From Dipylidium caninum (taxonomy: Eukaryota; Platyhelminthes; Cestoda; Cyclophyllidea; Dipylidiidae), in contig QEYB01000087.1 in NCBI GenBank assembly GCA_017562135.1, forward strand, positions 87,286-151,285: a stretch of DNA of 64,000 bases, given 5' to 3'. This document shows positions 2,759 to 60,856 of the stretch, piece after piece; position 1 is the first letter of the stretch; each line of letters opens with the position of its first letter. The notes under the pieces were generated by a model that was not told where the DNA came from, searched no databases, and saw nothing but the letters and a program-made list of their open reading frames with translations. A program made the translations under genes and the position numbers.

Positions 2759-2764
2759 GTGGCC

Positions 2765-32089: not shown

Positions 32090-33075
32090 TGCTGATGATG
32101 AACTTCTTCATCTTGTCCACCTTCTGTTTTTCTTCTTCATGTCCCCGTGCAGCTTTTACATCGCTATTCTTGCGCGGCTGTGATCCAAGCACTAACGACA
32201 TCGTGCACTTCTTGCGTCTGTTTTGTGTATCTCTTTCTCCCTTGTTCTCCTCTAATGTTGTCATGGCTATACGTGTATCTGTTGCTTTCATTCATTTAAT
32301 AACTACAACCTAAGCTATTATCGTTAGTGCATCGTTATCGTGCATCGGCTATCAGGGCTTCCCATGTATATCAATCGGACGTAGATGTGTGTTATTCCAC
32401 AATATGTAGCGTGTGTGGGCGTTGCACAGTCGTGTGTACAAAGGGCAGAAAAGGATAGAAGAGATTGTGAACATGTAAAATCAAGTAGACGATCTTGTCT
32501 ACCAGGTTTAAAGTGGCTATAACGGGCCAGTTTCGGTAGTTGCCTTTACGGTGGAAAGCAAAATTTCACATTTTTTTGATTTGCGTGCGTAACTGCACTT
32601 AATCACGATTTTAAGCATTGACAAGATATTAAAAATGGTGAATCTCCACGTCAAGAACACAGGCGGGCGGGAGAGAACTCATCAATCACAGACTATCCAA
32701 GATATGAACTTTTGAAGCAAAAAAAGTGTATATATTATTGTCTGGACAACAAACTGTGAATGGGTTCATGGCAGGTGGTCCCATAGGATTTTGGCATAAG
32801 CAGAATAGACAGCACTGAGAATTAATAAAACCACATAGTTGGAGAGATTAAAAACTCACGACCAAAGGAGTCTTTTTTTTTCACTCTCTTGCCGATGACA
32901 GTCGCAGACGGTAGTGTACACGTAACACTAATTTTGATTGTTGCTTTTTCCTCTAAAAAGTAATTCATGAGTAGAACAAAAGGCTATAGTCTGTCGGACA
33001 TTCAAATATCGGTGGGTATTGAGAAGCGTGTAGAATTTGATTTTAGAGAAGTTAATATGTCGACAATTTAAAAAC
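32090..33075. other. No gene recognised
   Basis: This stretch probably contains the 3' untranslated region of the ELAPOR-like gene. I see no supported exon or repeat. Confidence 0.5.
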
Positions 33076-33101
33076 GTTAAATTGTAAACAATAATTGCAG
33101 C

Positions 33102-33817
33102 TTCATGTAATCATCGTGTCTAATTGCGCAGAAATCTTGCGCCTGTGTGGATCGAGAATTACTGCTTGTTTTCTTCTTCATAACCTTCTCCTCATGCATA
33201 ACATCAAACTTCACGGCAATGGAGCTCCGCAACTGTTATGTTTTCGCCTGGTTGTATTATAGCAAGGAATATTTGACCGCTTCTGGGGCCTCCACCTTAT
33301 GCTAACCATAATTCCGTGGTGGAAATCCTACGTAGAGGTTGTGGTTTCGAACTGTATTCCTACCGACCCCTTTGCTTGGTCGTTCTCGACCACCACACAA
33401 GGTCCACTTTTCATCGCGAGTGACGATTTTGTGCGAAAACGACAGCAAGCGCGTATTGCGAAGGGAGCAACCGGGACGCGCACTTGCTCCTGAAGCGGTC
33501 ACGCGGTCACATGCAGTTGCGTCTCTTCGCACAGCAGGCACATACGAGGCGACTCTGCTTCCTCCTTATTTAGGGCACGCAGGTGCTTTGGCACAGCCCA
33601 GTGACTAGTGTGCGAATGCTTGCGTGGCCAGGATGCCACGGTCGTTCTCATTTGCTCTCCTTATCAATCTGAGCCGGTAGTCTGCCTCGAGGCGCATTGT
33701 CGAGCCTTAATATGACAAACTGCAAATTGTAACACCATTATTGAGCACGATTTCCACTAGGCGATCCATCCATAAATGCCTCATTAGTGTTTCTCGAAGC
33801 TTCAGCTGAGCTATGAT
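33102..33817 (-). pseudogene. Degenerate mariner transposase fragment (copy A)
   Basis: With frameshifts and stops the minus strand reads: EASRNTNEAFMNGSPSGNRA (N-terminal helix-turn-helix), LDNAPRGRLPAQIDKEE (linker, GRP-like), SHWAVPKHLRALNK (second helix-turn-helix, compare S..AVSKHLRALGK) and FSHKIVTRDEKW (the mariner IVTGDEKW motif holding the first catalytic Asp). It then decays at VILDPHSVR (compare VILQHDNARPH). The DDE C-terminus is absent, so it cannot be active. Confidence 0.8.
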
Positions 33818-34357
33818 TTAACTTGCACTAGTACAATAAATGTAGACAAAAATCACGCCCCGTTTCCACCTTATTTCTGCAAAAACAAAACACAAATGAG
33901 ATGTAAACAGGCACAAGCTTTCACAAAATGATCGAGGCACAGACGGTTATAATTTACGTGCAAAAGCAGGAAGCTCGCATCCCAATGTCTCTCACTCAGT
34001 CTCAGCTGAATACGGACTAAACCACAACGCTCGTTTCATAGTTTCCAACCTAACAGCATTCATGAACGACCTCAAGGTTTTTCGTAAAAGCATCGTATTC
34101 AAACCCTGTCGATGTAAGTGAAGGTCTCGAATTATCCTGCTTGTGGCAAAGGAGGCAGAATGTGGGTCAACCTCGTGGCAGGTCGTTTACACTTTGTTTT
34201 ACCAAAGTTTGTCCAACTGACCACTTTACAGAGGGCAAATACAAAATGCCCTGCCCAGTAATATGTGAGATAAAGCGAAAGGGGCACGAAATCAAGAGGT
34301 CTCTTCATCTGCGAAGGAGGAGTGATAGAGGTTGGAGAGATTGGCAAGTCGGGAGGA

Positions 34358-34882
34358 ACTCTTGAATGCCGTCGTAGTAGCGGGACACGGCTCCAACACT
34401 AAGTCCCATGTCAGTCTGTTGGCCGGTAATGCCACAGGAATGCAATTGCGTACAGTGCTCTGCAGTGCCAGAAAGGCACTGGTGTTGGTCAGTCGGACTG
34501 CTGAGTTGCCGCCACAGAAGAGTGTCATTTCAGCAGGTGTCTTGGGTGTTCTGCACCGCGGTGGTGGCACGGGCGGCTGAGGTGGCGACAGTGGCGGTGA
34601 TGGTGCATGAACAATGCTACTGCCAGTGGCAGTGACATCTTGTACTTTCACTGGTGCGCTCGACTCAGTTGTGTTGACTTCAGAGCTAAAATTAGTAAGG
34701 GGCGAATAAACTTCCCCTCTGAAGGCAAATCAATTAATCAATAACGATCAAAGTTTCATATGACGTGAATACCTTTTGTGAAATCGATTATACTGTCAAA
34801 TAGCAATCGTTCAAATACTGTCTTTTTTTCATAACATGTTCAACCACAAATATTTTTTGTTTGTGATATGTTTTGGCAGCGG
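34358..34882 (-). pseudogene. Captured RGS-gene segment (copy A)
   Basis: This segment is nearly identical to 38219-38745. It includes about 200 bp of intron, the acceptor attttag and the first 328 nt of the coding exon. The match ends abruptly after the codons for TTTAFKS. The open frame then continues into foreign sequence (about 20 residues, ending FADEETS-stop). Confidence 0.85.
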
Positions 34883-35072
34883 AAAAATGCAAACACCCAT
34901 ACATGCAGCTGTTGCAATCCACGAATTTTTTCATCTCGTTGACTCTGTCAGTCCTTTAAAATGCCGTTTGATGAAATGCCGCCTTTACTTTCACACGATG
35001 TCCAAATACAACAAATTTTCGTCTCAATTTCCTGCTAACTGCATAATAAATTAATATTTCGAAAACGTTTTT

Positions 35073-38000
35073 GCTCTTTATTCCAGCGTTTCGATAGAGG
35101 CAAGGTGGGTGTCAGGTAATTAGCCGAATACGCTATCCCATTGTCGGACTATAGTTAGAAGGGAAGCACTGAAATCCTACCGTTCACATCCTCCTTTACA
35201 TGGCGTCTTTTCTTGGCCGGGAAGAATACTGGCGGAATTCCCTACGCACTCATGGAGGAGAAGGAGGACATCACATTGCCTTTTATGCTCCTTACTTGAA
35301 TCTTCTAACCCCGTAATGCAATTCACTTGGATGGGAAACAGCATTGAATCAAAAAAAAGCAACTCAACCCGCCGGACAGGGGGATCTAATTAATTTTTTA
35401 TTACATCGTTTAAAGTCGCATCTATCTGGACGAGGACATCCTACATGTAGTGATTATCAAGGGCCAGGAGAAGTCGTCGAGGCCATTGTCTAAAGTGTAT
35501 CCACCGTAATTTCCTGAAAGCGCTACAAAATGTCGGGGGTTTTTTAGAGTTGGAGTAAGGGGTATTTTCTTAGACAGGATAGGCGAAGATCACATAGCAA
35601 CAGCTCTCCTGTTCTAGTTACTCTGTCTTACGCTTTCACGTGACAGGCAGCAATTTCGCTGTAAGTGTTCCATTTCTTCCGTTTTTGGGATGAATTGAAA
35701 AGTAGTTTTGAACTTCAAGTACATTGCCTGCTAATGAAAGAGCACAATGTATTCTCAAACGTCAATTCAGTGATTTGAAGTGAAAAAAGTGTCTACGCGG
35801 CTGCACTATTTTCCTTTTCTTAGGATCAGGATGTGGAAGATTTACGACCAACCTCCGTATCGCAGGCCTCTAAATATTTGTTAACTTTAAATGCCAAATA
35901 ACGAAAAGGCGCTGAATGAGGCAAAGTGTCCGCGCCGTCAGCCCTCTTCCAACTCCACCGTCGTCTCAAGAAACAATACACTTAGGACCGAAAAGGATCC
36001 CAGTAAACGTGTTTTAATATGTTGCACATACACATCTACTCAGTGAGATTGACGATACACTTCCTTTGTAAATGTGTTCATAATATCATCACACTAGTTA
36101 CCACATTTTCCGTTTGTACAAAGGACTCAGTAACCAAGAAAACGCTCCATTAATTTTCATTATTAACATTCTTGTATAGTCCTTGGCTAGTTGTAATCAA
36201 CTGAGAATCCACTTTTCAGAGGTCTCTTCCCACCATACCTAAAAGGTTACCGCCAAGTGTTAGCGAAAGAAGTAGGCGTGTAATGCTCACGTGCCCTGAG
36301 TAAAAAAAAAACAAAGGGAAATTGCCCTCACTTTTAAGGAGAATCTTAAGGAAAAAGGGTTCTTCTGAATTTTACAACTTCAAACACGCACATATTTCCC
36401 TTTGCCATATGCCTATTCGGCGTATTTAAGTAGTATGGCAGGCACGTTAAATCGGTCCAGGATGCTTACCAGCCTTCTCTTAAGGCTTTTTGGTGAACAG
36501 TTTTACGTAGCCTAACAGGTAGACCCTGGATTAGTGGCAAAAGGCCCCTCGTCATGCGTAAAACAGACTATTAATAAATGATAAGGTGGAAAATGCCCTT
36601 CGCTTCAGTGTCACAATGCAGTAAGCATATCCATATCCATATGCTTATGCCACGAAGGAACAAGCTGATTCCAGTGCACATTAAGAACAAGGTGAAGTTG
36701 TATAAAACGAGAGCATTCTTCCCCATATATGTTCATAATAGGTGAAAGGCGCCGGTGGTTATGATGTTGATGATGCCGATGACGAAATGCGATCATTGGT
36801 TAAGACGATGGACCAATGCGGATGCAGAATTGTCCTCTCCACCACGGAGGGGCAAGGGTGTTCGGAGGGGAGAGGCAGAGGGAGGAGAGGAAGAAGGGTG
36901 CAAGGGTGGGGTAGCGATTCCTAATACGCTAACTTGTAGATCCATGCGTAGCCGGATCATGTCTGCATGGGTTTGGAGTCAACCGTAACGTCCCTGTTCC
37001 GTAATCTGTCATAATCTTCTCGCAAATGAGCGGCCAAAGTATACCCACGAGGTGAGACATATTTCGTTTTCATTTTATATAATCTAACCCAAAAAATGTC
37101 CCATCTGTGGGTGGAAGTTTTACATCCCCTTATTTTACAACTTGCTTGAAAGTCGGTACAACACATTCCTCTTATATCTAGTTAAGGAGGAGATAACTTG
37201 GAAAAAAAGTAGAATTACTGTCTTCATTGTTGGTGTTAGATTACAAGCAATACTGAGTGCTCGGGACCCTGTTGATAACATTAGGATGTAGTGAGGTGCA
37301 GACGATATCTTTGCCAACTAATCTGCCCAGTATATAGACTACAATGTGTGGAAAAACAAGTCAAGAAATGTGACTCACTAGGATCATAATTTTTGTACAA
37401 CTTGGTTCTTTGAAAGGGAATTTGCCAACAGTGATTGGATGAGAAGGTGTCTTGGATGACTGAAAAGTTAAACATAAACTAAATAAGACTGTGACAATGT
37501 ATTGTGACTTTAGTTAATAATAAAAGCTTCGAAAACACTTCCATAGGGAGGATGTTTTTGCAACTTTACCCTTGCAACTAGTTTTAATAGCAGCGTTTTA
37601 GGCTTTGTTACAACGTTTACCACGCCAAATTTACCGCAATGGGGTTGTTTTGTAGGCAAAAAAAGTGTCCAACTTTACTCTCCCTCCAGACCCATTTCGA
37701 TAACAGGGCAAAACTTACAAGACATCTCATTTGGGAACTAGGAAAGGCAGACTATAATAGTCAGCCAAAGAAAGATATTTTTCTCAGTGCGACGCTGTCA
37801 ACTTCCATACCTTACTTCAGCACCAGTGGCCATGCTGTTGGGGGGTTGGTAAACTCACGAGGACACGGAAATTTGCGTTGGGTTAACGTATTGAATCAGG
37901 CACTTTTTACCTACCGCTGCCTCACATCCTCTAAGTTCCGCTTAAAACGCCAAATTTAAGTCCGACCTCATGTGGCTCCGTGATCGCATGACCGCTAACA

Positions 38001-38217
38001 TTAAATATCTTTTTTGTTAGCGTATTTAGAGCCATCTAAAGCAGTGGTTCGGCGCGCGAAGATGTAAAATAACGGCGGTAACCTCCCCTTGGTTTTGCTT
38101 GACAGAGCTAAAGTCAGGGAGGTGTGGTAGAATTTAGAGTGACTAGTGGATATGGATGATGATCAGGGAAAGGAGAGGGATTCGCTGCCGAATCTCAGAA
38201 TTCAATATTTGAATTTG
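35073..38217. other. No gene recognised, possible 5' RGS-gene territory
   Basis: The upstream exons of the plus-strand RGS gene should lie here or be missing. A 106-codon plus-strand frame at 37639-37959 begins MGLFCRQKKC, which would suit an N-terminally lipidated RGS start, but nothing else supports it. The other frames are short. Confidence 0.35.
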
Positions 38218-38218
38218 T

Positions 38219-38745
38219 CCGCTGCCAAAAACATATCACAAACACAAAATATTTGTGGTTGAACATTTTATGAAAAAAAAGACAGTATTTGAACGATTAC
38301 TATTTGACAGTATAATCGATTTCACAAAGGTATTCACGTCATATGAAACTTTTGATCGTTATTGATTAATTGATTTGCCTTCCGAGGGGAAGTTTATTCG
38401 CCCCTTACTAATTTTAGCTCTGAAGTCAACACAACTGAGTCGAGCGCACCAGTGAAAGTACAAGATGTCACTGCCACTGGCAGTAGCATTGTTCATGCAC
38501 CATCACCGCCACTGTCGCCACCTCAGCCGCCCGTGCCACCACCGCGGTGCAGAACACCCAAGACACCTGCTGAAATGACACTCTTCTGTGGCGGCAACTC
38601 AGCAGTCCGACTGACCAACACCAGTGCCTTTCTGGCACTGCAGAGCACTGTACGCAATTGCATTCCTGTGGCATTACCGGCCAACAGACTGACATGGGAC
38701 TTAGTGTTGGAGCCGTGTCCCACTACTACGACGGCATTCAAGAGT
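38219..38745 (+). repeat. Resident copy of the RGS segment found in both cassettes
   Basis: This is the donor-side copy of the segment also present at 34358-34882 (inverted) and 50466-50990 (direct). It begins at ccgctgccaaaa and ends at attcaagagt, inside the exon. Differences are few, for example one A/G in gaacgattactatttg and one A/G in cccactactacg. Confidence 0.85.
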
Positions 38746-41700
38746 CTTCACCGTGTCTCCAGTGATGAAAATATAGCAGCCAGTTTTCAGGTTAAGAAGG
38801 TGCATCTCCAAAGGGTGACATCTGAACAAATTCGTCGATGGGAAACAAACCTAACTTTTTTGCTCAGTGATCCTGGTAAGTATCCCTTCTATATAGCATT
38901 CATTGTTCTCGACTTTCCTACTTTCGGTCCCCTAGTCATCATTACTATGATCGCTTCTATTCTGACACCATTTGTATTCCGATTAAGCTTAAAGAAAGTC
39001 GGCCGTTTACAATCTCTGAGGCAAGAGTAATTATTTCCAGCTTTTTCGCAAATGACAAAGCTACTCACCTGTCCTCCTCTTTTTTGCTCTACTTGCACTA
39101 TTTTTTGAGGCATTTAAGTGTTCCTTCTTGACTTTCACTTTTCCCTTTATTGTCACTGCTTTATGCACCACCCAATGATACAGTTGTAAGCTAAACTCTA
39201 AACTTCCGGCTCTACGTGTTGATATATCTACAATACAGCAACAATTGATATACTGGCTCACCTTCTTAACTCCAACAGGATACCTGGGTCAAAACGGAAA
39301 TTGTTTGGTCCCTTTCACACTGCCTGTCTAGGGGAATTATGCATATAGAGGTAGAGAGTTTTTATTCAAGCTACTATCCCGCATATATCCTTTAAATTAC
39401 ATTTATGGAGATTGGGATTACTGTCTTAGCAATGGATTATCTTGGTATTAACGTTAATTTTGAAAGATAGATAGGCAAATGATCGTTATTTTTTATCTAA
39501 AAAAGTGCACGTAAGATGGTAAAATGGAGGGACATCGACTGTTGTGCTTTCGAGATTTTCCTCCAGCATAACCTATGACTAGACGTTAAATTTGAATGTG
39601 GATGTAAAAATTTGAATAAAGGTGACTGGTTATGCTGTGCGCAGTTGTTTAATCACCGAAATTCGTGATTATTAGAAGCATAAAGAGTCTGTAAAGGTAG
39701 TTTAGTTCAAATTCGTACTAGCAGTGTAGTTGTAGGAATGGATTTTGACCTTCTCCTAAGAACAAATGATCTCTACAACTATGGAGCGAGTGTTAGTACA
39801 ATATTCCGCAATTCGCGAACTAACAAAGCATTTGCTGCGGCAAATAGCAACTTTTTCTGGTCCATTGCAAAGATCGTAACTTGGCCAATTAGTGGCAACG
39901 GATTTGCCCAGTAAAGCCACTAACCCACAAGTTCATTTGAAATCTCTGAAGGGAACTTTTGAGAAGATTAATAGTTTAGTTTTACTTCAGTATGGACAAC
40001 TGAGGTGACGTTTAGGCAGCCATAAATCAGAGTCGCAAGAGCTCCTTGGGTTAGGAGAATTACCTTAGTGTTTCCACAAAAAAATTCCGCTTAAGCATCC
40101 TCTCTACTTAGGCGGGTGGTAAAACACACGGCTAAACCTTCGGGTGCTTGTCAGCAATCGAGCATGGGCAACTTTTCGTCTTTTTGTGTGCTTTGGTGTC
40201 GGAATCACGTCCTTACGAATAATACATCAGTTAAAAATAGTTATTTCATGTTTAAAGATTAAGATTTCGAGTTGTGCAAAGAAAATTCCTGTAGTAAAAT
40301 TCCTGAACCACAAATTCCAGATACTTATTGCTTTTTGACAATGGCCAAACGGTTCCGAATTCCACAAAGTTTATGGAATTAGGAATTCTTAAAAAATTAT
40401 GTGTAAAATGTGTATTTCAGCCCTTTTGTACGATCTTTACAAATGACGAGAGTCGTAAGGAAACCTTTTACGTAAACTATTTCGCTATACAAAAATCTCA
40501 GTCGAGAGTCATGATTTCATTCAGAAACCCCTACTTGAAAAGGTGGTTTTTAAAGGTCGTCTCCCTACATAGGTAACATGCATTAAAACGAAGAAGAAAT
40601 TCTAAACAATAAAAGAACGTGAATTACCGTCTTGTTCTTGATAAATCACCTGGAAATGCCGAAGTTATAATAACGCTTAGAGCACATATATCCTTTATCG
40701 AATCAACCTTTCTTGACACTTTCCTTTAAATTACTTTATTGCATTTGTCGAGAAGAGACAGTTGTTAAAATGCTAGTTGAAAATACCGCACCCCTTGTTA
40801 CTCCTTGAATACATTTGGAAAGATTATCGCGAAAAAAAAGAATTCCTTACCAACCTATAATAAAGCAGCACAAAGAAATGCCTTTGTCTGTTTCGTCAAT
40901 TCTAAAAATAATTGGTTGATATTAGAACTTACCGAACTACCGGTTGATAAAAATACAGCCAAAGAAACACTTCAGTAGGTTGCAATCTTTAAATAGAAGC
41001 CTAAACTGTAAATTAGTCTAATCTTTATGCCTATAGAGAATAAACATTGAATCGCTCAAAAGCTGTCTGATTTAACCACCCCCGCAAAAAATGACAACTT
41101 GTTTTATCAAGACCGCTTTTTCCTGCAGTCATGAAAACTTTCTTTCTCCTTTTGGATTCACTTGAACTCCAACACTTAAAAAAGAGACGTTGAAGTGCAT
41201 TAAAGAGGTGCGAAGCAGAATTTGAATACTCCTCGGTGCTGAACTCAGGGGCGATTTGTAGCTTTGCGCGAAAACTGATAGTGTTAAAAGTCTGACAGTT
41301 GGAAGTGTATTTTGATTTCACACAGCTATCCTTATGTCCGCCGTTAATCATTTAAATAGGCCTAAACGCTTATAGTGAGGGCGATGAAAACCCTCCAATA
41401 AACTACAACATGCAGGATTTGTAATCTTGTTAATTTTATGCGTTCTATCAAGAAATTATCCAAAATTTGGGCATTGGAGGATTTTACAGATGTTTTTTCA
41501 AGGCCACTGTTGTTTCTACAAAAGTTGCTAATAAATCAAACAACCGCAACAATGGTTTACAGATGTTTTATCATGTTTTTATTGTAGAGGGTTTGGCGCT
41601 CTTCGAAAAATTTCTCGAAAGCGAATTTAGCCAGGAAAATTTACAGTTCTGGGAAGCCTGTGAACAATATCGTCGGTTGCCTGCAAAACTCCTAGCCTCT

Positions 41701-42148
41701 GAGGCCCAGAAAATCTACCAACTCTACCTTTCCGTCCAGTCACCTCGAGAAGTGAAGCCCATATCCCTACTCCTATTACTTACTCAATGTTACTTTCATC
41801 TTATAAATAGTTTTCTTAATTTTTCAGGTGAATCTGGATTCTAAAACTCGATTAAAAACGATCAGTCTCCTCTCTACCCCGACTACCCACCTTTTTGACA
41901 GTGCACAACGCAAAATTCAAGCACTGATGGAGAAGGATTCGTATCAGAGATTCCTTCGTGCACCTCTCTTCCTCAATTTCAAGAAATCCGTATTGGAAAA
42001 TGCAGGCGCCGCCACGAAAGCCCATCAAAACTCATCACCTCGGGAACAACAACGTAAATCTACTCATCATGGTTCAACGACAATCCACAGCGCTCTTCCC
42101 TACATCCTTAATGTTAGTGCTATTCCATTGGGTCGAAAACCCTTCTAA
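38418..42148 (+). CDS. R4-type RGS protein (regulator of G-protein signalling), 5' end missing
   Basis: Exons: 38418-38875, 41588-41751 and 41828-42148 (stop). The junctions are phase 1 (Glu codon split) and phase 0. The first exon gives a Pro/Ser-rich segment (PSPPLSPPQPPVPPP), a Cys-containing stretch and the start of the RGS box (SEQIRRWETNLTFLLSDP). The second and third give FEKFLESEFSQENLQFWEAC, then EVNLDSKTR, FDSAQRKIQALMEKDSYQRF. The Galpha-contact residues of RGS4 (Glu-Asn in SEFSQEN, Asn in VNLDS, Asp-Ser and Arg in KDSYQRF) are present, so the GTPase-activating function should be intact. R4 similarity (SVQ..REVNLDS) is better than R7. The frame after the box runs to TAA at 42146-42148. 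Introns of 2.7 kb and 76 bp. Confidence 0.85.
39069..39227 (-). CDS. Possible nested minus-strand exon in an RGS intron
   Basis: This 159-nt open block has a good acceptor (gttgtattgtag) and donor (gaggacag|gtgagt) on the minus strand. It codes for a basic stretch (KGKVKVKKEHL, SRAKKRRTG) with no recognised domain. No partner exon was found, so this may be chance. Confidence 0.2.
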
Positions 42149-45100
42149 TGGGGGCTAAAAGCACTCCACAGATCCCTCATATCAACTTTTATCCATCCAG
42201 CCATCTACCCAGCCTTCTATCACTTCAGTCCACTAGAGAAAAACAGTAAATAATATTGAGGTGCCGCTTTTTATACACGAGAGAATCATTTTTATACGTC
42301 TTATTCCCTCTCCTCGATGCGAAGATTCCGCTTGTATTAACGCAAAGGATGCATCCACTAGTAAAGGAATCTCTTCTAACCGCTGATCTGTTCATTGATG
42401 TCATTTCTTCCGCGCATACATCACGTGTGCTAGATCTAAGGGTGTTTTGGTTGGAAAAGGAAAAAGGGAATTGCCTAAAGAGTAAACGCTTCAAGGGTAA
42501 ATGCAATGTCACTTTCTCAAGACCTGGGTAGTGGCCCGCAGAAATCGCCCACATTGCTCCTTTCACCCAATTCCGTTTTTCATTTAAATTGGTATTTTGA
42601 GAAGGACTGACTGTGTTTGATAGGATAATACAACGCCAGGGTATGCCAGTCCCTTCACGTGATGTTCGAATAATCCACCTCTCATGTACAAAAAGAGCCA
42701 AGCCCCCCGCATGCTTTTTACTTCATTTTATTTTTTTCTAATCATGTGAATTTTAGAGTTAGTAGGAAGTTTTCATATAAATTGCCTCAAAAGTGTTAAT
42801 TTTAGCGGAGTGCTTGAACAAGTGAGTGCATAAGTAGGCTTTCCAGTAGCATGTTGTAATCACGGGTGACTACGGCTTGTTGGGCGTGAGACACAATAGG
42901 CACTGACAATTAAAATTACCTGATTAATCCTTGACTTAACGTCAGTGAATTAGCCTACCGCTCCGACTTAAATTAATTTAATTTTTCCATTATTTACTGG
43001 AACCGCTAAAATAACTGACTAAATCGACAAGTTCTCAACAAAGAGAATTCCGTCTTCCACCACTTTTTAACTTTTTAAATCAAGGCGTTTATACTCGAAA
43101 GTTACTTAGATTTGTTTAGATAAAAGTCTCCTCAACCAAAACGTGGCCGCCGGGCTTGTACCATGTGTATAATCAGGAGGCTCTCAAGTACGACAACATT
43201 CGCACTTTGATTAAGCGGCAAATACCCTTACACATATGCACCGTATAAGGCGAGGTAAATATAGAAGTTCAATTAATTAGATGTCACGTCACTCCCCACT
43301 GAGTTAACTTCTACCCACCTCCGTGGTTTGGTGGTTTGGTACTTACCGCACTGCTGTACGATGCAGTGTACACAACCTCCTCTGTCGCCTGCTCCATCGT
43401 GTACTTACGTTAGGTGGTTTAGAATTACGGACTGCGAGGTTAATTGCTCCTCAGTCCGGCCATACGCTGGAATTGCATCCTCGTCTACGCTTCTTCAATC
43501 ACTCCCACACAATTATATCCACCTCTTCACCGGGATGTTATTGTTGGTGTCCCCACGCGGAATGGAATCTGTGTGAATCTGTCTCTCGTGACTCGCATTA
43601 CCTGCGGCACACATGGAGAACATAAAATAGCATAAAAGTCAACTTTCATGACTAAGCTTCTTGAGAATACTTAGACATGCATTTAACCTTCCTTCTTGAA
43701 GCGAATAGAAAGCCAATTACTCGTCACAGTTGCAAGTAACTCGCACTGAAGGCATAGACTGCCAATCACCATGGTGAAACAGACTCACTTGCAGTTGGAA
43801 GAGATTATTTGAGTTCCTCACTGACTAACTGGTAGTTAAAAATTAGAGAGTTCACAAATAATTTCGTTGAACTTCTATATCATAAAATTTTATACTTTTC
43901 ATTCTTAAGTGAACTTCCAAAATAGACCTAAAAATACTATGGTGGACGGAGAGGCCGCTTTCATCATAATAAAACTCTTTACCCCCAAAAAAGAATGACT
44001 CCTCATCTGGTGCCAATGAATAATTAAAAAAAGAAAACACTCGGAGAAGTGGCGCAACTCAACTCACCCATTTCCTCTAACATGTCTCTTGTATTAGACG
44101 GTTTATATATAGGAAACGGTATAATTTTCTTCACTTTGCATTTTACCAACGAAATGTGTGCATTGAGGGTGCAATTAAACCTCAGCGTAAAAAAGGGTTC
44201 CACAGGAGCATTTCAGACGTCCCAAAAAGGGGATAAAGGCGATCTCATTGTTTACGCAAGGGCAGAATAATTTATTGTTCCACTCGATAAATGGTGCTGC
44301 AAATTTCCTTCTCCCCAAATTGTCGCCTCGATCTAATTCGCAGAAAGAAGAGTTGGCCAACATCGCCTAGACGAAATACCCCATGACTTCGAGGAGTAAA
44401 AATAAATGAATGAGTTGGTCTGAGGACAGATGCGATATGAAGCGAGGAGAGGAGACCGGCGGAAGAAAGTGTCATTAACTTTTACTGTCAGGACTATTTT
44501 CCTCCGGGAGCAGTACTACCCAAAAAATTCCCTGTCGAGTGTTTTCGTAAATTAGTAGAATGACCGAATTTTAGGTCAAAGGCAGGCTGATACACTTCGT
44601 TTCTTTCATCTGTTTTTATTTCACCTTTCGTAAAGTCTGAAATTGGCTATCCCCGAGTCCAATACTTCTCAACGTCTCAAAATGCCCTTTTTAATCCTAT
44701 ACTCGCGCACTTCAAAACCACAAAATCGTGCCGCCACGTTAAACGGGTAAGTTTACCTTCGTATTAGAGGCCTCAACCGCGAAATGGAAGGTGATGGAAA
44801 AAAGGGAAGGAGGGGGGGGGGGGGGTAAAAGGGTGGTATACCTTACTTAATCTAGGCGAATTCACCTACTGTAGGAAATTCCTGCTAAAGCCATTAAGAC
44901 GATTCGAACGCAACCCTTGCACGACAGTCTAACACCTCATACTAAGTGGCAAACATCAACGCCTCCTCCTCTACCTCTTCTTCCCCCTCGGGCGAAAGGT
45001 GAATGAATTGTGATTGCTCCACATGCTATAGTTTAAACCAAATTCCACTGTGATGTAGGGGATGAGCTTAACATTATGCGTCTTTCCGTACTCTCACTAG

Positions 45101-48100
45101 CTCAGAGCGTTAGACTTAAAGGTGAGTGAAATGTGAGCAAAATGCGAGTGGTAAACAGTGGACATGTTTTTGTTTTAAAAGACAGCTCTTTCGTGAGGTC
45201 GTGTATCCGCCAAACTTGGCAGTTAATATGAAGAGTTGGACGTAAGTGGATGCTTTTCATTCGCCTGGGTGCTAAATCGCAACTTTTTTCTCATACTGTA
45301 GACAGGTGAAGAGACGCAGGAAGAGTGAATTTTAAATATTGCGCTCACCTTCTTCAAGTACTCATAGAGATGGAAGCAGATGGATAATTCTCATTCACTC
45401 GATTGCCAAACCGCAACCTCTACATTTTCATTGCCACTGTGTCCACTAGTAGTGGCAGCATTATCGACAACATCAAGGCTCTCAAACAAATCATCAAGTC
45501 GCCCCACTACTTTTGTCACTTTTTTTCCCACACCATAGACACGTCACGAAATGTTGGAAGAGTGAATTTTAGATATCTCACCCATCTTCGTTAAATGTTT
45601 ATAGACTGTGGAGAAATATTGCCATGCAGTTTGCTAGTTGACAGTTGACGCCCGCGATTCAAATCCTAACCACGTCGATAGGGTGAAGTGCAGGTACAAT
45701 CTTATCTTCCATTTATCGCGTATGCTCAAGGAGCTGCGTTAACTTATCGAAAAAGGCAATTCCTAATTATTAGATCTATTCCAGAATTTAACGTTATCTT
45801 TACTTGCTGCAAATATGGACCACAGACACCGGGGCAGACACTTCAATTTACTGTCTTAATGATTGTTCAATTTTTTTCATATTTAAGGCTTGTACCGTTC
45901 CTTGAGTAATTGTGGTGTGGCCCCTCTTTTTCTTTAATCCTCCTACATGCAACCCTCAGAATGGTGAGGTGATAAGTTTGGAAAAGATTCCTTGTAGGAT
46001 TAAGGGTTTAAAAGTATTTGACAAAAGCACTCCCCAGTACAATCTATCTACTTGGAACCCAAACACGCTCCCACGTTAACACCATACTGTTATTTTTTAT
46101 GTACAAGACAGTGTTTGGTGGGAAAATGTTTGAGAAGACTTAGAGTTTCGTGTCAAAATGGCAAATCCCACCAAAGGAAGTAACACCATGATTTATGGTG
46201 AAGATGCCTTAAAGGTTATCTATAAAAGGAGATGTCAGACCAACCTCTACATAAGGCCAGGTGGTTTTTAAAAAAATGGAAAGAACACTTCAGTTGGCCT
46301 GGACGCACTCCTGCGGTAGAACACCAAAAAAATACTTGTCATATCAAATATATTCGTTTCCTCTGCGCACACATTGGTCTGCTTACCAATGCCAAAACAG
46401 GCACTGCTAAGATTTGCAAACCCTTCATGCTTCAAATGGCGCACCAACAATACGTTGGGAAATCTTAAATAACAAGCCATTCATTTAATCTGACTTCTCT
46501 CGTTATGGGGAAAAGTCATCACTGACATAAAGGTGAAGTGACGTGCGATCTGCCATCTTCTTCTGCTAAAATGAAGAATATCCATTGAAAGAATACTAAA
46601 TTCCATAAAAGCAGACGTATGCGAATGTTTACAACAACTTAATATAAAACAATAGGATTGCGTATTTTAATCCATTATTTCCTGGTGCCATTTAGAACTC
46701 TTGATTGCTTTCGCAAAGGGAGTGACGAGCCGAACAATTTTAAAAAATCTTCATCGCCCTACACAAAAGTTTCAATGAAAATTCATGACTGTTAGGATTA
46801 ATGATGTAATTTATACGTGCATCTTTTTATTTTCTATAATATGGGAATTCGCTTAAGTTTCAACTTCACACAAATATGATTAATTATTGAAGGAAGTACA
46901 CGTTTGGAAGGAAATATGAGGATTATTGTAAATAGTTAAGTTAAATAGTGGAGAAAAGGAGAATAATGTTGGGATATAAAGCCGAGGGTAGAACATATGT
47001 TTGAAAAAACACAGTTCGAGGCATTCTAGTTAAGAGAAAACTATTTTTCCAACTCTTTTCAGTTATTTGTAAGAACTGCCCAGGCCATTGCTTGAATTGA
47101 ATGCAAGTCGTACGACAATTTAAAGTTTGGAGAAATGAAATATGGCAACAAATGGGATGCATATACCATGAGTTATCATATGCTTTTTATGAAATGCCTA
47201 CAGTAAATGAGAAGTATAACAAGTGATTGACTTTGTTTCGAACATTCTTCGTTAACTGAGTCTGCGGAGATTGTTATTACTGACTTGGGAATAGGCGAGT
47301 TTCGAATGATAATCACTCAGTATGTCGCTACATGTTTTCAACGTGATAGTAAAAACATTTAAGCTGCTTTTGCCTCATTTTCACTCTCCATTCTCCTTCT
47401 CCACTGCAAAATACCATGGCTATGGACCACACTTAGAGCGGATATAGTCTTTCGGGACTTTTTAACACAAACTTAAGCCTTTCGAACGGAAGCGCAAGGT
47501 AGCGTGACATCACAATTGCTTAACTAACTCTTTTTTACTTATTAATAATTAACTATACTTAGAACACTACAATTCATTTGTCAGGTGCCCTCCGCCACCC
47601 TAAAGAGGCATTTAAATTACGGACGAGTGGTTCAACATTTCTTAATATCTATACAATGACAAATTTAACTTCAAATTTTTGACGATTCCCATATTTTTAT
47701 GCTGTCTAAAAAATTCATTCTTGACAGAGTTCTAACGGGCATTGGGGGCAAGAAAAGTGCCTTGTTTTTGTCAGTGCTCCTTGTTTCCTCCCTCTTTCCA
47801 CTTCTTCCCTATCTCCTTCTTGATTATTTCACTTTTTCTGCCCTCTGCTGTCCTAATGTAAGTCACTCAAATGAAATTGCCAATAACCTTTTCATTTGGA
47901 TTCTTATTAATTCTACAAATTGTGGCTTGATACGCGATGGTCAGGTTGTAAAACTAGTCAGAAAATCATTCAGCTCCCAGATCCTCCTTAGTTTTACTAA
48001 AATTTTGTCTAAGATCTGCTGGAAAGTACTGTCCCTTTTTGGATTAGAAAGACAATTTTCCTCACAGTTATTAGAGTCTATAAAATAATATAATTGCCAC

Positions 48101-48514
48101 TATTATTTTGACTTATTGTCAGAGTGAAGGCAATTGCATATCCCATTCTTAAAAATATTTAACATCTTCTTGTGCGAAAATTTGAATCAGTTCTTGTTTG
48201 ACAACTTCTTCTATTTTAAATTTTTGCCCTTCAAAAAGGCCTGTAATGTCAAAGCGAGTGGTAGTTGGGGCATGCTAAATCCCGGGAACATAATGGATGC
48301 AACGGAATTTTCCTGCTTAATTCTACGATTATTCGACGAGTCCTCGTAGCAAAATAATGCATCTTTTCTTTTACTGCTTTCTTTAACTTCTCCACTTGCT
48401 GACAATACTTCTCCGAATTAAGCTTTTCGTCCTAAGATGTCCCATCGTATAAACATTTTCTTAATAAAAGATAACTTTAGTTTAGATATGGAAGGGCTAG
48501 ATTTTCCGACTTCC
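42149..48514. other. Intergenic, no gene recognised
   Basis: Open frames without recognised domains include a 158-codon minus-strand frame at 42225-42701, a hydrophobic 129-codon plus-strand frame at 47699-48088 and a 78-codon frame at 46232-46468. A degenerate direct repeat lies at 45280-45375 and 45515-45615, and a run of 14 G at 44812-44825. I do not call a gene. Confidence 0.4.
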
Positions 48515-49050
48515 ATGAAACTCCTCCGAAGGTAAGCCACATTCATCCCCCATTATTATCCTCTCCAAGAAGGCCGCGATTTTGTTACCAGCAAGCAGAG
48601 ATGTCCAAATGACTACTCGATTGTCCAAAAAGACATGACTTTTCACACTTTCCACACAAATGTCATCTTTTACATGTGGTCGGATATGGTTTATTGAGCT
48701 GAATTAAACTTTTCTGCGATTTTCGGTACTGTCGGAAAAGGATCTTTCTCCAAGATGGTCTTAACAAAATCGTCGTAGACCAAAGATGGTCGCACAGAAA
48801 ATGGCTCTCCTGAAAGGTCAAAATCATCTTTGTTACAATTTTTGACCATATTTTGCAAATCTTATCGTAAGCTCTAACTTCCCCCAACGCTTTTACTAAA
48901 TTTCTCCAAATTTCGGTGGCATTTGTTCCATGACGAAATTCGTGTAAACTACAATGGCGTAAATGAACTTCATCGGTAGCCGTGGGGTACACCATTGCTT
49001 CATCCTTAAGACTAACTCGATTTAATTTTGTTTCAGTCAATTTGCCGCGT
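48515..49050 (-). pseudogene. Degenerate mariner transposase fragment, second lineage
   Basis: The minus strand reads, with at least one frameshift and several stops: LRHCSLHEFRHGTNATEIWR (N-terminal domain, compare LR.CLLYEF..GTNATEAAR), DDFVKTILEKDPFPTVPKIA with AEKFNSAQ and TISDHM (second helix-turn-helix), then SLLAGNKIAAFLERIIMGDE (compare SLL.RNK..FLDRIVTGDE). The order is that of a mariner transposase up to the first catalytic Asp, and the rest is missing. The sequence differs clearly from the mariner parts of the 2-kb cassettes, so it represents another family. Confidence 0.75.
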
Positions 49051-49361
49051 CATTCCGCACACATTAAGCGATAAAAATAGAGAGCCAAACATAAGCCGAA
49101 TAAACATATGCCAAGTGTGTAAAGTAGTAGCCATAGAAATGGGTAGAACTTTCCGGTAGACCCGATACATTTCTCCGTGAGAATCTACCTGGAGTGGAGA
49201 TTGCTGGTGAGTAAGTGTGCACTTAGAGATATTTTATTGTTATTTTTACCCATATGAGAGTAATCTAAGGGCACACAAACAGCTTGGAGGGGATAGAAGT
49301 GGCGCTGGCAGGCCGACATTACTCGTCGGGTGCAAGTATATTATGACTGATAACTAAGAAT

Positions 49362-49493
49362 AGGAGGAGGAGGAGGAGGACTCAGGGAGGAGGAGGAGGA
49401 GGACTCAGGGAGGGGGAGGAGGACTCAGGGAGGGGTAGGAGGACTCAGAGAGGGGGAGGAGGACTCAGGGAGGAGGAGGAGGAGGAGGAAGAG
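49362..49493 (+). repeat. Purine-rich minisatellite (GGAGGAGGACTCAGGGAGG type)
   Basis: Five to six imperfect copies of a unit of about 20-25 bp built from GGAGGAGGACTCAGGGAGG with extra GGA triplets. One strand is almost pure purine with many GG runs, so triplex or G-quadruplex formation is possible. Confidence 0.9.
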
Positions 49494-50172
49494 ATTACAT
49501 TTCACTTTCGAGCTTAGGTTGTTTAAGTGGCGAATAGCCGGGCAAAGCCTCCTATCTTCCCAAACTAAGGAGTGTAAGTCCACTCTTACTCTAAGTTTCA
49601 GGAATTGGCGTAGAGTGAAAGATATTGCACCAGTCCCATTGCTTTAAAAGGGGCTTTGAGAAAAACTAGTTAGAGCGCCCAGACGAGAAGACTAATAGCG
49701 ATAAGAGGCCGTTAATGTGCACGACTTCTCGCCATACTTAACCATACTGATTTTCTCATCGTAGGGGAAGTAGGCTAATTGCAGAATCACCACATTAATC
49801 TCCCTCCTGCCAAATATATCCCACTTTTGTCAAGTTTTTAACACATTTCACCCAACCCCCGCGTCTCACCCCATCTCTCTCGCCTCCACCCACTGTTGAC
49901 ACTCTCCAACCTCCCTTCACACGAGAACACAGGGAGGTTAAATTTATGAGGAGGATGAACATTTCTTTAATTTATATTTTCGACCGAGTGTCTCTATAAT
50001 TTAGCAGTTTGGAAACTATGAGGAATGATATTTTTGTTTAGTCTGTGTTGACCTGCCACTGCGTGATACATTGTAAACCAAACTTGACATTTTAATTAAA
50101 AAATTTTTAGATATTATATTCTTAATCACCTATTTTTAGTGCATTTCTCACCGAAACCAACGAAAATAAAAT
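49494..50172. other. No gene recognised
   Basis: No feature seen between the minisatellite and the cassette. Confidence 0.5.
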
Positions 50173-50465
50173 ATTGTTTACAATCAAATTTATCGTACTA
50201 GTCCAAATTGGCTCTTGGCTCAGCTCAAGCTCCGAGAATCATTAAAGAGGCATTTAAAAATGGATTCTCTAATGAAAAACGTTTTCGAAATATTAATTTA
50301 TTATGCAGTTAGCAGGAAAATTGAGACGAAAAATTGTTGTATTTGGACATCGTGTGAAAGTAAAGGCGGCATTTCATCAAACGGCATTTTTAAAGGACTG
50401 ACAGAGTCAACGAGATGAAAAATTCGTGGATTGCAACAGCTGCATGTATGGGTGTTTGCATTTTT

Positions 50466-50990
50466 CCGCTGCCAAAACATATCACAAACAAAAAATATTT
50501 GTGGTTGAACATGTTATGAAAAAAAGACAGTATTTGAACGATTGCTATTTGACAGTATAATCGATTTCACAAAGGTATTCACGTCATATGAAACTTTTGA
50601 TCGTTATTGATTAATTGATTTGCCTTCCGAGGGGAAGTTTATTCGCCCCTTACTAATTTTAGCTCTGAAGTCAACACAACTGAGTCGAGCGCACCAGTGA
50701 AAGTACAAGATGTCACTGCCACTGGCAGTAGCATTGTTCATGCACCATCACCGCCACTGTCGCCACCTCAGCCGCCCGTGCCACCACCGCGGTGCAGAAC
50801 ACCCAAGACACCTGCTGAAATGACACTCTTCTGTGGCGGCAACTCAGCAGTCCGACTGACCAACACCAGTGCCTTTCTGGCACTGCAGAGCACTGTACGC
50901 AATTGCATTCCTGTGGCATTACCGGCCAACAGACTGACATGGGACTTAGTGTTGGAGCCGTGTCCCGCTACTACGACGGCATTCAAGAGT
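50466..50990 (+). pseudogene. Captured RGS-gene segment (copy B)
   Basis: This copy contains the intron end, the attttag acceptor and about 330 nt of exon. It diverges from the resident gene after attcaagagt, and the open frame then continues with SSRLANLSNLYHSSFADEET and a stop at 51054-51056. The RGS box itself is not included. Confidence 0.85.
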
Positions 50991-51529
50991 TCCTCCCGAC
51001 TTGCCAATCTCTCCAACCTCTATCACTCCTCCTTCGCAGATGAAGAGACCTCTTGATTTCGTGCCCCTTTCGCTTTATCTCACATATTACTGGGCAGGGC
51101 ATTTGTATTTGCCCTCTGTAAAGTGGTCAGTTGGACAAACTTTGGTAAAACAAAGTGTAAACGACCTGCCACGAGGTTGACCCACATTCTGCCTCCTTTG
51201 CCACAAGCAGGATAATTCGAGACCTTCACTTACATCGACAGGGTTTGAATACGATGCTTTTACGAAAAACCTTGAGGTCGTTCATGAATGCTGTTAGGTT
51301 GGAAACTATGAAACGAGCGTTGTGGTTTAGTCCGTATTCAGCTGAGACTGAGTGAGAGACATTGGGATGCGAGCTTCCTGCTTTTGCACGTAAATTATAA
51401 CCGTCTGTGCCTCGATCATTTTGTGAAAGCTTGTGCCTGTTTACATCTCATTTGTGTTTTGTTTTTGCAGAAATAAGGTGGAAACGGGGCGTGATTTTTG
51501 TCTACATTTATTGTACTAGTGCAAGTTAA

Positions 51530-52245
51530 ATCATAGCTCAGCTGAAGCTTCGAGAAACACTAATGAGGCATTTATGAATGGATCGCCTAGTGGAAATCGT
51601 GCTCAATAATGGTGTTACAATTTGCAGTTTGTCATATTAAGGCTCGACAATGCGCCTCGAGGCAGACTACCGGCTCAGATTGATAAGGAGGAGCAAATGA
51701 GAACGACCGTGGCATCCTGGCCACGCAAGCATTCGCACACTAGTCACTGGGCTGTGCCAAAGCACCTGCGTGCCCTAAATAAGGAGGAAGCAGAGTCGCC
51801 TCGTATGTGCCTGCTGTGCGAAGAGACGCAACTGCATGTGACCGCGTGACCGCTTCAGGAGCAAGTGCGCGTCCCGGTTGCTCCCTTCGCAATACGCGCT
51901 TGCTGTCGTTTTCGCACAAAATCGTCACTCGCGATGAAAAGTGGACCTTGTGTGGTGGTCGAGAACGACCAAGCAAAGGGGTCGGTAGGAATACAGTTCG
52001 AAACCACAACCTCTACGTAGGATTTCCACCACGGAATTATGGTTAGCATAAGGTGGAGGGCCCCAGAAGCGGTCAAATATTCCTTGCTATAATACAACCA
52101 GGCGAAAAACATAACAGTTGCGGAGCTCCATTGCCGTGAAGTTGATGTTATGCATGAGGAGAAGGTTATGAAGAAGAAACAAGCAGTAATTCTCGATCCA
52201 CACAGCGTAAGATTTCTGCGCAATTAGGCACGATGATTACATGAA
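51530..52245 (+). pseudogene. Degenerate mariner transposase fragment (copy B)
   Basis: This has the same content as the copy A fragment: NTNEAFMNGSPSGNRA, PRGRLPAQIDKEEQMRTTVA, SHWAVPKHLRALNK, KIVTRDEKW, VILDPHSVR. The pieces fall in different frames and are interrupted by stops. It lacks the C-terminal half with the remaining catalytic Asp residues. Confidence 0.8.
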
Positions 52246-52271
52246 GCTGCAATTATTGTTTACAATTTAAC

Positions 52272-55200
52272 TTTTCTGAAGTATGAAATTATGCAACATT
52301 ACCTGAATTGACCCGACATCTCACCGACTGATTGTTACCTTTATCGCAATCAAGAATTAGTTTTTGGGAACAAATATGCTGTAACTAATATGATCTTATA
52401 TTTGATTTTGAGCATTTTATTGAGTAGAAAAAATAACATTTTCCTCAGACGTTCATATGACTTATTCATTTTTATAAAGTAAGCCGTGGAAGCCCGTGAA
52501 AATTGTGCCGATTTATTGTAATAACTAGAGTAAGCCGCTTTTTTTTTGTCCTCTACTAATTTTCGATATCCGTTTTATAGACTCTAACTTAATAGAAAAC
52601 ATATAGACAAAGAAGGTTCAAAAGGTTGGGTGTGATAGTTTCTCTAATTTTTTCATCAATGCAACCATTTTAATCCTTTTTTTTCAAGCCGGAAAAACAG
52701 AGCCTACCGCTACTCTTAGACTCTACAGGCATATCTTTTTTTGTGCCAGAGGCATCCCTCGTTAAAAAGTATTATTTTCACTGTCAAACATAATCCAGTT
52801 TAGCTTTTCAAAATTAGGGGCATTATCATCTCATCCCCGTGACGGCAAATCGTCTTGACGGTAAATCATATATTCCAATTTTCTGCTCAGCTTGCATCTT
52901 CAGCTAAACTATAAGTTGAATTTGTAAATGAAAAGTCATGATTAAATGTCACCTAATTAAAATAAATAGGGTTTTTTTTCACTCATTCCCTTTAGGTGCT
53001 TTCTTCTCCTCCCCAGCATCCTTCCCATTCAGCCCCACGCCTAAAGAAATTGTATTATTCGCATTGTGTGCGCAACTGAATGCCAGAATAACACTTGCCA
53101 CAGAGAGCGGCCACTGCCATGTCAATAAGCTTTAACCTGTGGCCAATGAATGGGTATTTCGTGATTTTCACTTCCCTCGTGATATATCAAAATTGAGAGA
53201 CAACGAACAGCACTTCCGCCGAAATGACAATTTGTAGGAGTTGGGACCACTCCGCTTCCCTCACATTCTTGACAAGCGCGAGGCTACAGAACGGTTCGTT
53301 ACTAGAAAGGTCGGAGGACTAATGTGCATGATTATACTTTTAACTGTTTAAACCTTCGCCAATTATTTTGATACGGTCGATTGAAGCATAATGGAATTCC
53401 CTGAAAGCTTGTAACATTGCAACAATAACTGGAGTGTTATACACTTTCCTTTTATGAAATTCACCTACTCTTGCCGGTAGATCAACCTCTATCGGACTTG
53501 CACTTGAACATTAAGTGGACCAATCAAATCCCCGGTACTGTTGCGTGTATCACAACAGTTATCTGACAAGAGTACTTTTTAGCATGTAGTTTGATAATAA
53601 TTCGCAGTCTTAATTAAGTACTCAATTTTATGCACCTTTATTGGGCTATTGCTCCAGTGCTATGATCTCAATGAGTGGTTCACTATTGCCGACTTTGCGT
53701 GTCTGAAAAACATTTTCAGTTAACCAATGGGCAATAGGAGAAAATTTCTCTCTTGTGATTGGTCTATTCAAAGTGGAAGTGAAGGCATGCGTCAAATGTC
53801 TTCGTTATGAATTGAACGATATTCTTGCCTGTAACACTCTGGATGACCGATTATATCCTCTAAAGCACGCAATTTAACTCGAATGGGTTAAACATCATCT
53901 GAAGTTTGAAGGAGGAGACAGTGACCAATTGTCATCTCTATGATTAAGGGCTACTTACCGCAGAACTACCTATTTTGTGTTTACAACAGATATTTCAGGA
54001 ATCAATTGTGGAAACGGTGAAGAGAAACGTGTTTATAACCCAATCTGTCGCTTTGGCGAACAATTTGACAGCCGGATTGTGCAACCGGGGAAATTTGCTC
54101 GTTTCGGAAATCTTTGGGTTAGGTTGGAAGCTGTCTCCGCTTTCAGACTTTCAACGCAAGTTGCTTGCAGCGCCAGCAAAGTTGGGAGAATATTTCAAGT
54201 TCGGCGATGATTTGCTTTGATGCCGTATTTTCGGTTTTTTCCATTTGAATAAATGGAAGCTTCTGTACTAAAAAAGTTATCAAGGAATTTGGATGCGCTG
54301 GATAGCGCTAACGAGACATAAATTATTAACCTTTACTACGCTTAACAAATCACGCATTGATTTCAAATGCTATTTCCCCAACGCGAATTTTAAAATGATT
54401 TATACCTCGCTTCATCTGAGGATAAGTAATTTAAGGCTCGATTGCGGGCATAATTACCCATGTGATACTCTAAACCGAAAGCGACCCAAAGGTGCACTTA
54501 CCATACGAAAAATTATAAACAGAGGACATTTGGAATCCCCTTCATTGGAGGACAAACTCTTTACTCCCGACGTCATTTGGGAATGGTTTCCGATTGTATT
54601 TGTTTGTGTTTCCTCATGGAATGAAGTCTAACTCGCAATCGAACCAACTTGGACGAAAATAATTCATAGGAAAAAAATTTTCCACGATGAAATAAGTCAC
54701 TGATAAGCATTATCTTGTTAGAAGTGTGAAATTCTTATTGAAATACTTATCCGGAGTTTTAACACCAGAAGAAATAATAACACATGAGCATTTCAATTCT
54801 CAGCCCAAAAGGCTATGCCGACTGCAGCTTTTAGGCATGTAGACGATATATGACATAGTCGAACAAATAAACCGCCATCTGGCACAGTTTATGGAGGGAT
54901 ATTTGAAATTTGATGACAATGTAGCTACAGTTGATTTTTATATGTTTGAGGTGCAGTACATGAGAGGATTAAGTAATCTAATGCAATCCCGCCACGCTTG
55001 TGTTTCACCGGGTGTCCTTAAGGGAGAACGCGCTATTGCATTTGAGGGAAATGGCTATACAAATTGCGAGCGTACGTTAGCTGAGTGATTTTTGCGACGG
55101 TCATTATGACTTTCAAGCAAGCTAATGGACTCACATTAATTCAATTAACGTATTGACTATAGACTAAAATATGTGTCAAGGTGAATCGGACTACTTTAAA

Positions 55201-56690: not shown

Positions 56691-56874
56691 AGTGCAGATA
56701 AGATTGGCGTGTGCCGTTCTGTTCGAAGGGAGATAAAAATTGCTTTTCATATAAAGATGACGACTTCGGAAAAAGAATCTGAGTCTGGTACCCCACATTA
56801 ATGGATGGTAGCGGCTGCGAAAAAGCGAAGCCTAACTGTGTCAAATATCGCGGCGCTCGTATAAGGAGGCGCAC

Positions 56875-60600: not shown

Positions 60601-60856
60601 CTTAAATAATACGGTTCAAACCCCGATCGAGGTCGCTGTTAGACTTGTGTTTAACACTTGTCAAATAATTTTTCTTTGTTTGTTTTCTAGTCTTCTGGGC
60701 ACGCCGAATTGGTCCACGCTTGTCAGATGTGCAATTCTTGAACCTTTCGCTAAATTCAGCGGCATTACTCGCGACCTCATTACTGATTTAGTCTTTCGAG
60801 AAGATAGCATCAATCTCGCCTTTCAACAGGGCATTATTCTTAGCTTACTCTCGACC
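57669..60856 (+). CDS. WDR20: WDR20-type WD-repeat protein, N- and C-termini incomplete, several frameshifts
   Basis: Exons: 57669-57829, 57868-58266, 58337-58662, 58693-59096 and 60691-60856. The introns are 38, 69, 30 and 1,594 bp. Family motifs appear in order: [141 protein letters not shown], then a Ser-rich insert and [18 protein letters not shown] with [18 protein letters not shown]20 activates the USP12/USP46 deubiquitinases with WDR48 (established for human and fungal relatives). Single-base shifts are needed at about 57707-57710, 57948-57951, 58123-58128 and 58814-58818 to keep the family reading. The first, third and fourth lie in homopolymers. Confidence 0.85.

Follow-up and report, generated by a model that had tools for sequence, protein, structure and literature searches.

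A 2-kb inverted duplication with a captured RGS exon in Dipylidium caninum: a probable inversion scar with signs of gene conversion

How does part of a resident gene come to lie on both sides of that gene, in two nearly identical blocks of opposite orientation? The question is raised by a window of 64,000 nucleotides from the tapeworm Dipylidium caninum, which covers positions 87286-151285 of contig QEYB01000087.1 (here C129) and forms the right end of this 151-kb contig, in an assembly of 106 Mb and 920 contigs. The gene is an RGS gene, and the blocks, here A and B, combine a stretch of it with remnants of a mariner transposon. The answer reached in the present study is a well-preserved case of a familiar rearrangement and not a new mobile element: the 15 kb between the blocks were probably inverted, which left inverted duplicates at the breakpoints, and the captured exon seems to have undergone gene conversion. 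Unless marked otherwise, coordinates are those of the window.

The block pair and its contents

The blocks were delimited by self-comparison of the window and by pairwise alignment, and the following features are needed to describe them.
33072-35072, minus strand: block A, 2,001 bp, inverted duplicate of B
50275-52275, plus strand: block B, 2,001 bp
38208-38745, plus strand: source stretch (C), the end of an RGS intron and the start of the following exon
34358-34893, minus strand: copy of the RGS intron and exon in block A, lying in antisense orientation 3.3 kb upstream of the source stretch and 98.0% identical to it
50455-50990, plus strand: RGS intron/exon copy inside B, 98.5% identical to the source stretch
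51294-52600, plus strand: m2, a decayed, near full-length mariner of about 1.3 kb (mariner locus L007 aligned over 51294-52598), inside which B ends
33072-34053, minus strand: the part of m2 in block A, cut at the block end
50002-50278, plus strand: m1, a mariner 5' fragment stopping at about B's inner boundary
32923-33071, minus strand: mX, a mariner 3' fragment beginning at A's outer boundary, roughly in register with m2

When A is inverted, the two blocks agree in 1,989 of 2,007 alignment columns (99.1%), with 6 mismatches and 12 one-base gaps, and a chance origin of this likeness is excluded. A first-pass annotation had described two near-identical inverted blocks of about 2 kb, each holding the intron end and exon start of the RGS gene that lies between them; both descriptions hold, one side of the pair extending 4 bases further out. 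The captured piece of about 538 bp consists of some 210 bp of intron end with its acceptor and some 328 bp of exon start, and in the blocks unrelated DNA begins after the motif AAGAGT. Since intron sequence with the acceptor is present in both blocks, the proposal that the capture took place at the DNA level is upheld.

The mariner content was assessed by comparing each segment with 25 mariner loci, using 12 dinucleotide shuffles against 12 of these loci as the baseline; 22 of the 25 had been chosen for matching the block itself, so the score of m2 is partly by construction. Scores rose above the shuffle maximum for 23 of the 25 loci at 51294-52275, for 17 in its continuation (52276-52575), for 20 at 50002-50278, and for 12 in A's outer flank (33071-32772). 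No mariner signal was detected by this measure at 50279-50455, 50991-51290 or in A's inner flank (35073-35372), with 0 of 25 loci above the maximum in each. Given 23 of 25 at 51294-52275 and none at 50279-50455 and 50991-51290, mariner sequence lies on only one side of the capture inside the block. The annotation of mariner sequence on both sides thus stands for 51294-52275 and fails for the other side, where the mariner fragment m1 lies just outside B. Eleven of the 13 alignments that cross the end of m1 stop at 50273-50291, and the other two at 50257 and 50325. A protein-level search with short fragments, in whose query set the open reading frame (ORF) L013_0 was not taken for transposase, gave one modest match on B's outer side (E 1.7e-4) and was otherwise uninformative.

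Mariner copies are common in the genome (135 PF01359 matches). A further copy, on the minus strand, lies at 48084-48986, within the part beyond the coverage of the contig C666 discussed below. Two closely similar stop-free mariner ORFs were found on contig C687, at 97649 (L015) and 58175 (L014), with 346 and 290 residues, so that the genome may contain a younger mariner family in addition to the decayed ones. An A/B pair of much greater age, homogenised in its core only, was considered and rejected, the outer mariners of A and B scoring 19.2 against each other, where the maximum of 100 base shuffles was 19.9. Because A's outer mariner does not match B's above shuffles, yet matches other copies, it is a different mariner.

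A search of the genome with the whole block gave 49 matches among the 40 of 144 candidates that were scored; repeat counts are lower bounds, and the following statements refer to these scored candidates. Besides A, B and the live exon, the near relatives were three pieces of contig C666: two pieces of a composite similar to the blocks, at C666:12490-12674 (89%) and C666:12681-14339 (87%), and an exon copy at C666:8965-9500 (89%). The remaining 43 matches were 64-83% alike and all lay in the mariner part of the block. The captured RGS stretch matched five places, confined to C129 and C666, namely A, B, the live exon of the window (C), the live exon of C666 (E) and the C666 composite (F), which agrees with its first-pass description as a captured exon and not a common repeat.

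One of the two origins first proposed for the blocks was a non-autonomous element that had captured the RGS exon and was mobilised in trans by mariner transposase. The abundance of mariner copies and the two long stop-free ORFs on C687 would favour such an element, but the genome search suggested in the first-pass annotation to decide the matter revealed no dispersed copies among the 40 scored candidates, the sole further composite (87-89%) lying at the homologous place. The block ends fall inside m2 and in non-mariner DNA, terminal inverted repeats at the block ends did not rise above shuffles (A 10.1, reached by 46 of 500; B 8.1, reached by 237 of 500), and no match was obtained when the flanking bases of A and B were compared for a target duplication. 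We therefore regard a mobile composite as barely credible, and this first proposal is abandoned.

The opposite arrangement on contig C666

Contig C666 carries a second form of the locus, in which C666:1-12674 corresponds to window 47687-34885 reversed and C666:12681-25993 to window 50607-64000 forward. The two forms are 10-13% apart over long alignments. One further feature of the window follows from the comparison.
35073-50274, no strand assigned: segment inverted relative to C666, of which 47688-50274 lies beyond the start of C666 and is uncovered

The junctions of the segment differ in a telling way. The one visible C666 composite, F, has on its left the inner flank of A (ATCGAAACGCTGNAATAAAGAGC, one base different) and on its right the outer flank of B. 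In B, m2 continues past the block and C666 has the same continuation, whereas in A m2 is cut. Two of the four window junctions are thus common to C666 and two are not, and the unshared two (B inner, A outer) fall at the mariner pieces m1 and mX and look like new breaks. Turning 35073-50274 back brings mX and m1 onto one strand, ordered as the ends of a single element that lacks about 0.7 kb would be. Because the unshared junctions fall at two pieces that fit one element in this way, and because m2 is continuous in B and in C666, we infer that m1 and mX belonged to one element, that the C666 order is ancestral and that the window order is the inverted one. On this reading, A and B probably mark an inversion, whose breakpoints were left with a 2-kb duplicate in opposite orientations. 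The second origin first proposed, segmental duplication with inversion, is supported by these observations, as C666 carries the intervening segment in the opposite orientation and has a single visible composite.

The sequence of events would have begun with the copying of about 538 bp of RGS intron and exon, in inverted orientation, to a place some 3.2-3.3 kb upstream of the live exon, into DNA that also held the old mariner m2. The locus would then have come to exist as two diverged forms, C129 and C666. Breaks would next have hit the C129 form, within another old mariner (now the pieces mX and m1) and on either side of the composite. They would have led to the inversion of 35073-50274 and to duplication of the 2-kb composite, one copy of which would have come to stand at each end in opposite orientation. 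The duplication could have arisen through staggered single-strand breaks with fill-in and end joining, or through break repair that copied the composite. The join at B's inner side shares a few bases only (AAAAACG). In both forms, finally, the live exon and its antisense copy would have exchanged sequence by gene conversion.

Several observations weigh against this reconstruction. C666 starts at the equivalent of window 47687, about 2.6 kb short of the outer left junction where an unbroken m1/mX element would be expected, and a second composite at that junction, beyond the contig start, is possible. At A's outer join, mX and m2 keep mariner register to about 30 bases in the copies worked out, more as in homology-guided repair than as in random end joining. 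That the locus L055 is the best relative among the 25 loci for both m1 and mX, with L007 the best for m2, speaks for a single broken element, but this is weak evidence (for mX, 36.6 against 36.3 for L038). Furthermore, both orders compared come from one genome.

The same junctions bear on an alternative that reverses the order: a simple segmental duplication in inverted orientation would first have produced A and B, and a homologous crossing-over between the two blocks would afterwards have flipped the segment and given rise to the C666 form. Near-identical 2-kb inverted repeats would be good substrates for such an event, the same flanks would be predicted for the visible C666 composite, and inversions in Atlantic herring are interpreted likewise (PMC11499932). 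Two coincidences would be needed, however: m1 would have to stop close to B's inner boundary by chance, and a complementary 3' piece of a mariner would likewise have to begin at A's outer boundary. In addition, copying A from B would make A's inner flank a new junction, yet this flank is common to C666. On this balance we consider the alternative order of events unlikely.

An assembly artefact, in which wrong joining or mis-scaffolding of a haplotype had produced A, B or the C129/C666 pair, is rather improbable. Both contigs do end in the region, and the last 4 kb of C129 are insertion-rich relative to C666, with 15-27 gaps per kb in four bins from 59607 and 8 in the last 375 aligned bases, compared with 0-9 in each of 22 earlier bins; the C129 contig end (59600-64000) is probably poorly polished. 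The start of another contig, C154, also resembles a fold-back (78 mismatches and 47 gap openings in 1,537 columns). Against an artefact, most interior differences between C129 and C666 are substitutions (7.5 kb hold 523 mismatches and 57 gap openings), the exons are conserved and open in both, the A/B substitutions are polarised by C666 both ways (2 to A, 4 to B), and A and B have different flanks. The inversion thus remains our preferred account of the block pair.

Probable gene conversion of the captured exon, and the RGS gene

Since F and A/B hold the capture in the same host DNA and with the same right breakpoint, one capture would have preceded the split between C129 and C666. Divergence between the two forms is about 13% for the composites and 9.1% for the live exons C and E (48/530; gaps uncounted in this and the next three figures). 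Exon and copy differ by 1.1% for C and B (6/536), 1.3% for C and A (7/535) and 2.1% for E and F (8/380). Copies that are 98-99% alike within a locus and about 91% alike between loci, despite a capture older than the split, indicate that the exon and its copies have been homogenised by gene conversion within each locus. The individual sites are distributed accordingly: among 40 two-state sites in a five-way alignment, 31 set A, B and C against E and F, none sets C and E against A, B and F, and 9 show other patterns (E alone at four, F alone at three, C alone at one, and B with C against the rest at one). At this last site (50628 in B), A sides with E and F.

The likeness is arranged in identical tracts with diverged edges, for which reason we interpret them as conversion tracts. 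In C129, the exon matches B without a difference over 422 bp, whereas the first 92 bp contain seven differences and the region of the right end one. With A the exon shares an identical tract of 338 bp, A having a substitution and two one-base indels of its own further left. In C666, the tract common to exon and copy is 331 bp long and is bordered by seven differences within the 40 bp on its left and a single one on its right; seven of the eight E/F differences lie within 38363-38402. At the C129 left edge, C agrees with E and not with A and B at four positions in 38217-38299, one of which is a gap; F has no sequence there. In the latest events the direction was probably from exon to copy. Differences between A and B are also unevenly placed, most being near the block ends and only 3 of the 18 in the central half (p 0.008), which hints at conversion between A and B too.

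Three points count against this interpretation. As F lacks 143 bp of the capture, four copies only bear on the patterns at the left edge; four sites further right set E apart, F having the C129 state there; and 12 of the 18 A/B differences are single-base indels that may be assembly errors. Two recent and separate captures of the exon, one in the C129 form and one in the C666 form, would account for the high likeness within each locus with no conversion at all. Such a coincidence is hard to reconcile with the same host DNA and the same right breakpoint in both forms and with divergence concentrated at tract edges, and we consider it scarcely probable.

The first-pass annotation had concluded from the similarity of the copies that the composite was duplicated long after the transposase had died. 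The argument can hold for A relative to B, and fails for the RGS piece, for whose resemblance to the live exon gene conversion is a better explanation than a recent capture. In the inverted part, C129 and C666 also share identical runs of 402, 305, 282 and 242 bp, the maximum in 200 column shuffles being 117, and the longest run covers the last exon, which suggests exchange between the C129 and C666 forms as well, or constraint.

The gene from which the exon was taken is as follows.
38418-42148, plus strand: RGS gene, three coding exons at 38418-38875, 41588-41751 and 41828-42148, with the frame open in C129 and C666

Splice sites were assigned by eye. The captured exon and the two further exons complete an RGS domain (Pfam PF00615, E 5.8e-32), with the stop at 42148, and a convincing 5' coding exon was not found by motif search, although it was sought three times. 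The best protein match is an RGS protein of Taenia crassiceps (78% over 84%), followed by Echinococcus at 71-72%, and the first 8 of 103 matches are cestodes. The best solved relatives are RGS4, RGS8 and RGS16; an R7-type RGS protein with a DEP domain was considered and dropped, given these relatives and five DEP matches all on other contigs. As both genes are open over these exons, the RGS genes of C129 and C666 both seem to be in use. With a dN/dS between C and E of 0.22, the captured part of the exon is by this measure under selection, and the remainder of the three exons shows no amino-acid change. Synonymous change between C and E affects 16 of 85 sites in the captured part against 7 of 138 elsewhere in the three exons (p 0.002), an excess that would fit changes imported from the unconstrained copy, or plain regional variation.

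In both loci the antisense copy lies 3.2-3.3 kb upstream of the live exon stretch and in the opposite sense (A to C; F to E). It might accordingly be more than a relic: a transcript started upstream would form a hairpin and serve as a self-renewing source of small RNA that tunes the RGS gene. This is a long shot, read from the arrangement of the copies. If it were true, the duplex would be perfect over more than 330 bp, conversion would keep the hairpin matched to the gene, and the inversion would have added a second copy downstream.

The doubled region, related systems and meaning

Whether C129 and C666 are paralogues or alleles was approached by sampling. Genome search found window 1500-6500, window 28000-33100 and C666:26000-30000 to be single-copy, none of these three control stretches having a second copy and the third matching the C129 end over its first 994 bases only; on these three samples the doubling looks local. 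The three other contig ends searched, out of ten retrieved, each had a second copy in reverse orientation at 85-91%, two of them on the same contig, for which reason these two should not be alleles unless misassembled. We did not use this comparison as proof of paralogy, as the C154 end is indel-rich and may be an error-laden fold-back; sequence quality is also lowest at contig ends. In our judgement paralogues are the likelier case, and hyperdivergent alleles a lesser though serious possibility. The account of inversion and conversion is independent of this question.

Other duplications and repeats were observed along the way. At C154:1-21361 (L065, L070, L071), the sequence of the contig start recurs inverted some 20 kb into the contig, with 85-86% identity at the two places that were compared and with many indels; this is either a fold-back artefact or an old palindrome. 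C666:364927-366926 and 221151-223061 form an inverted 2-kb duplicate on one contig (85%), outside any giant palindrome at the one place sampled. Within the window, 8353-9065 is a 0.7-kb palindrome with arms about 91% alike, another local inverted duplication, no other copy of which was found in the genome search. Positions 49366-49483 hold a 20-bp minisatellite of 5.8 copies with relatives on several contigs. The stretch 57838-58666 is coding-like, has a WD40 match of 29 bits (cut-off 27) and is 96-98% alike between C129 and C666; it is perhaps a second gene in the doubled region.

A literature search for the pattern found close precedents in insects and fish and, among the papers listed, none for tapeworms. 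In Drosophila mojavensis, inversions 2h and 2q are attributed to staggered single-strand breaks and have inverted duplications at both breakpoints (PMC3355041). As in the present locus, originally single-copy DNA (about 1, 4.3 and 7.1 kb in D. mojavensis) was duplicated oppositely at the inversion ends, and one of the duplications carried a gene minus its first exon (PMC3355041). The window differs in that only 15 kb are inverted and only one breakpoint seems staggered, the other lying within a mariner; its duplicate also includes an exon copy captured earlier, with conversion between this copy and the source. Inversions in Atlantic herring likewise have inverted duplicates at their breakpoints, with a core more alike than the rest and gene conversion proposed; unlike the present case they are megabase-sized and polymorphic, and their authors attribute them to recombination between the inverted duplicates (PMC11499932). 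Inversion 2Rj of Anopheles gambiae has duplicate modules at both breakpoints that are not TE-like (TE, transposable element) and more than 99% alike, for which the authors weigh gene conversion against recency; these are inserted modules of 14.6 kb that the authors think came from elsewhere (heterochromatin or Y), whereas the block here is a copy of local sequence (PMC1952172). Interlocus gene conversion between Caenorhabditis paralogues resembles the present case in that duplicated stretches are homogenised, and differs from it in that here a live exon and a truncated antisense copy stand beside each other (PMC3966223). With the staggered-break inversions the locus shares two features. Originally single-copy DNA stands duplicated and inverted at both ends of the segment, the other end in C666 lying beyond the contig, and the one visible C666 composite, F, combines the inner flank of A with the outer flank of B, as a single copy in the ancestral order would.

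The locus offers what is probably an inversion scar, and a readable one, in a parasitic flatworm: one assembly contains both orders, the window breakpoints can be placed almost to the base, and old transposons mark the breaks. Two clocks are also kept apart here. The similarity between A and B says something about when the inversion happened, and that between the captured exon and its source does not, because conversion resets the latter; dating such captures by sequence identity would be wrong here.

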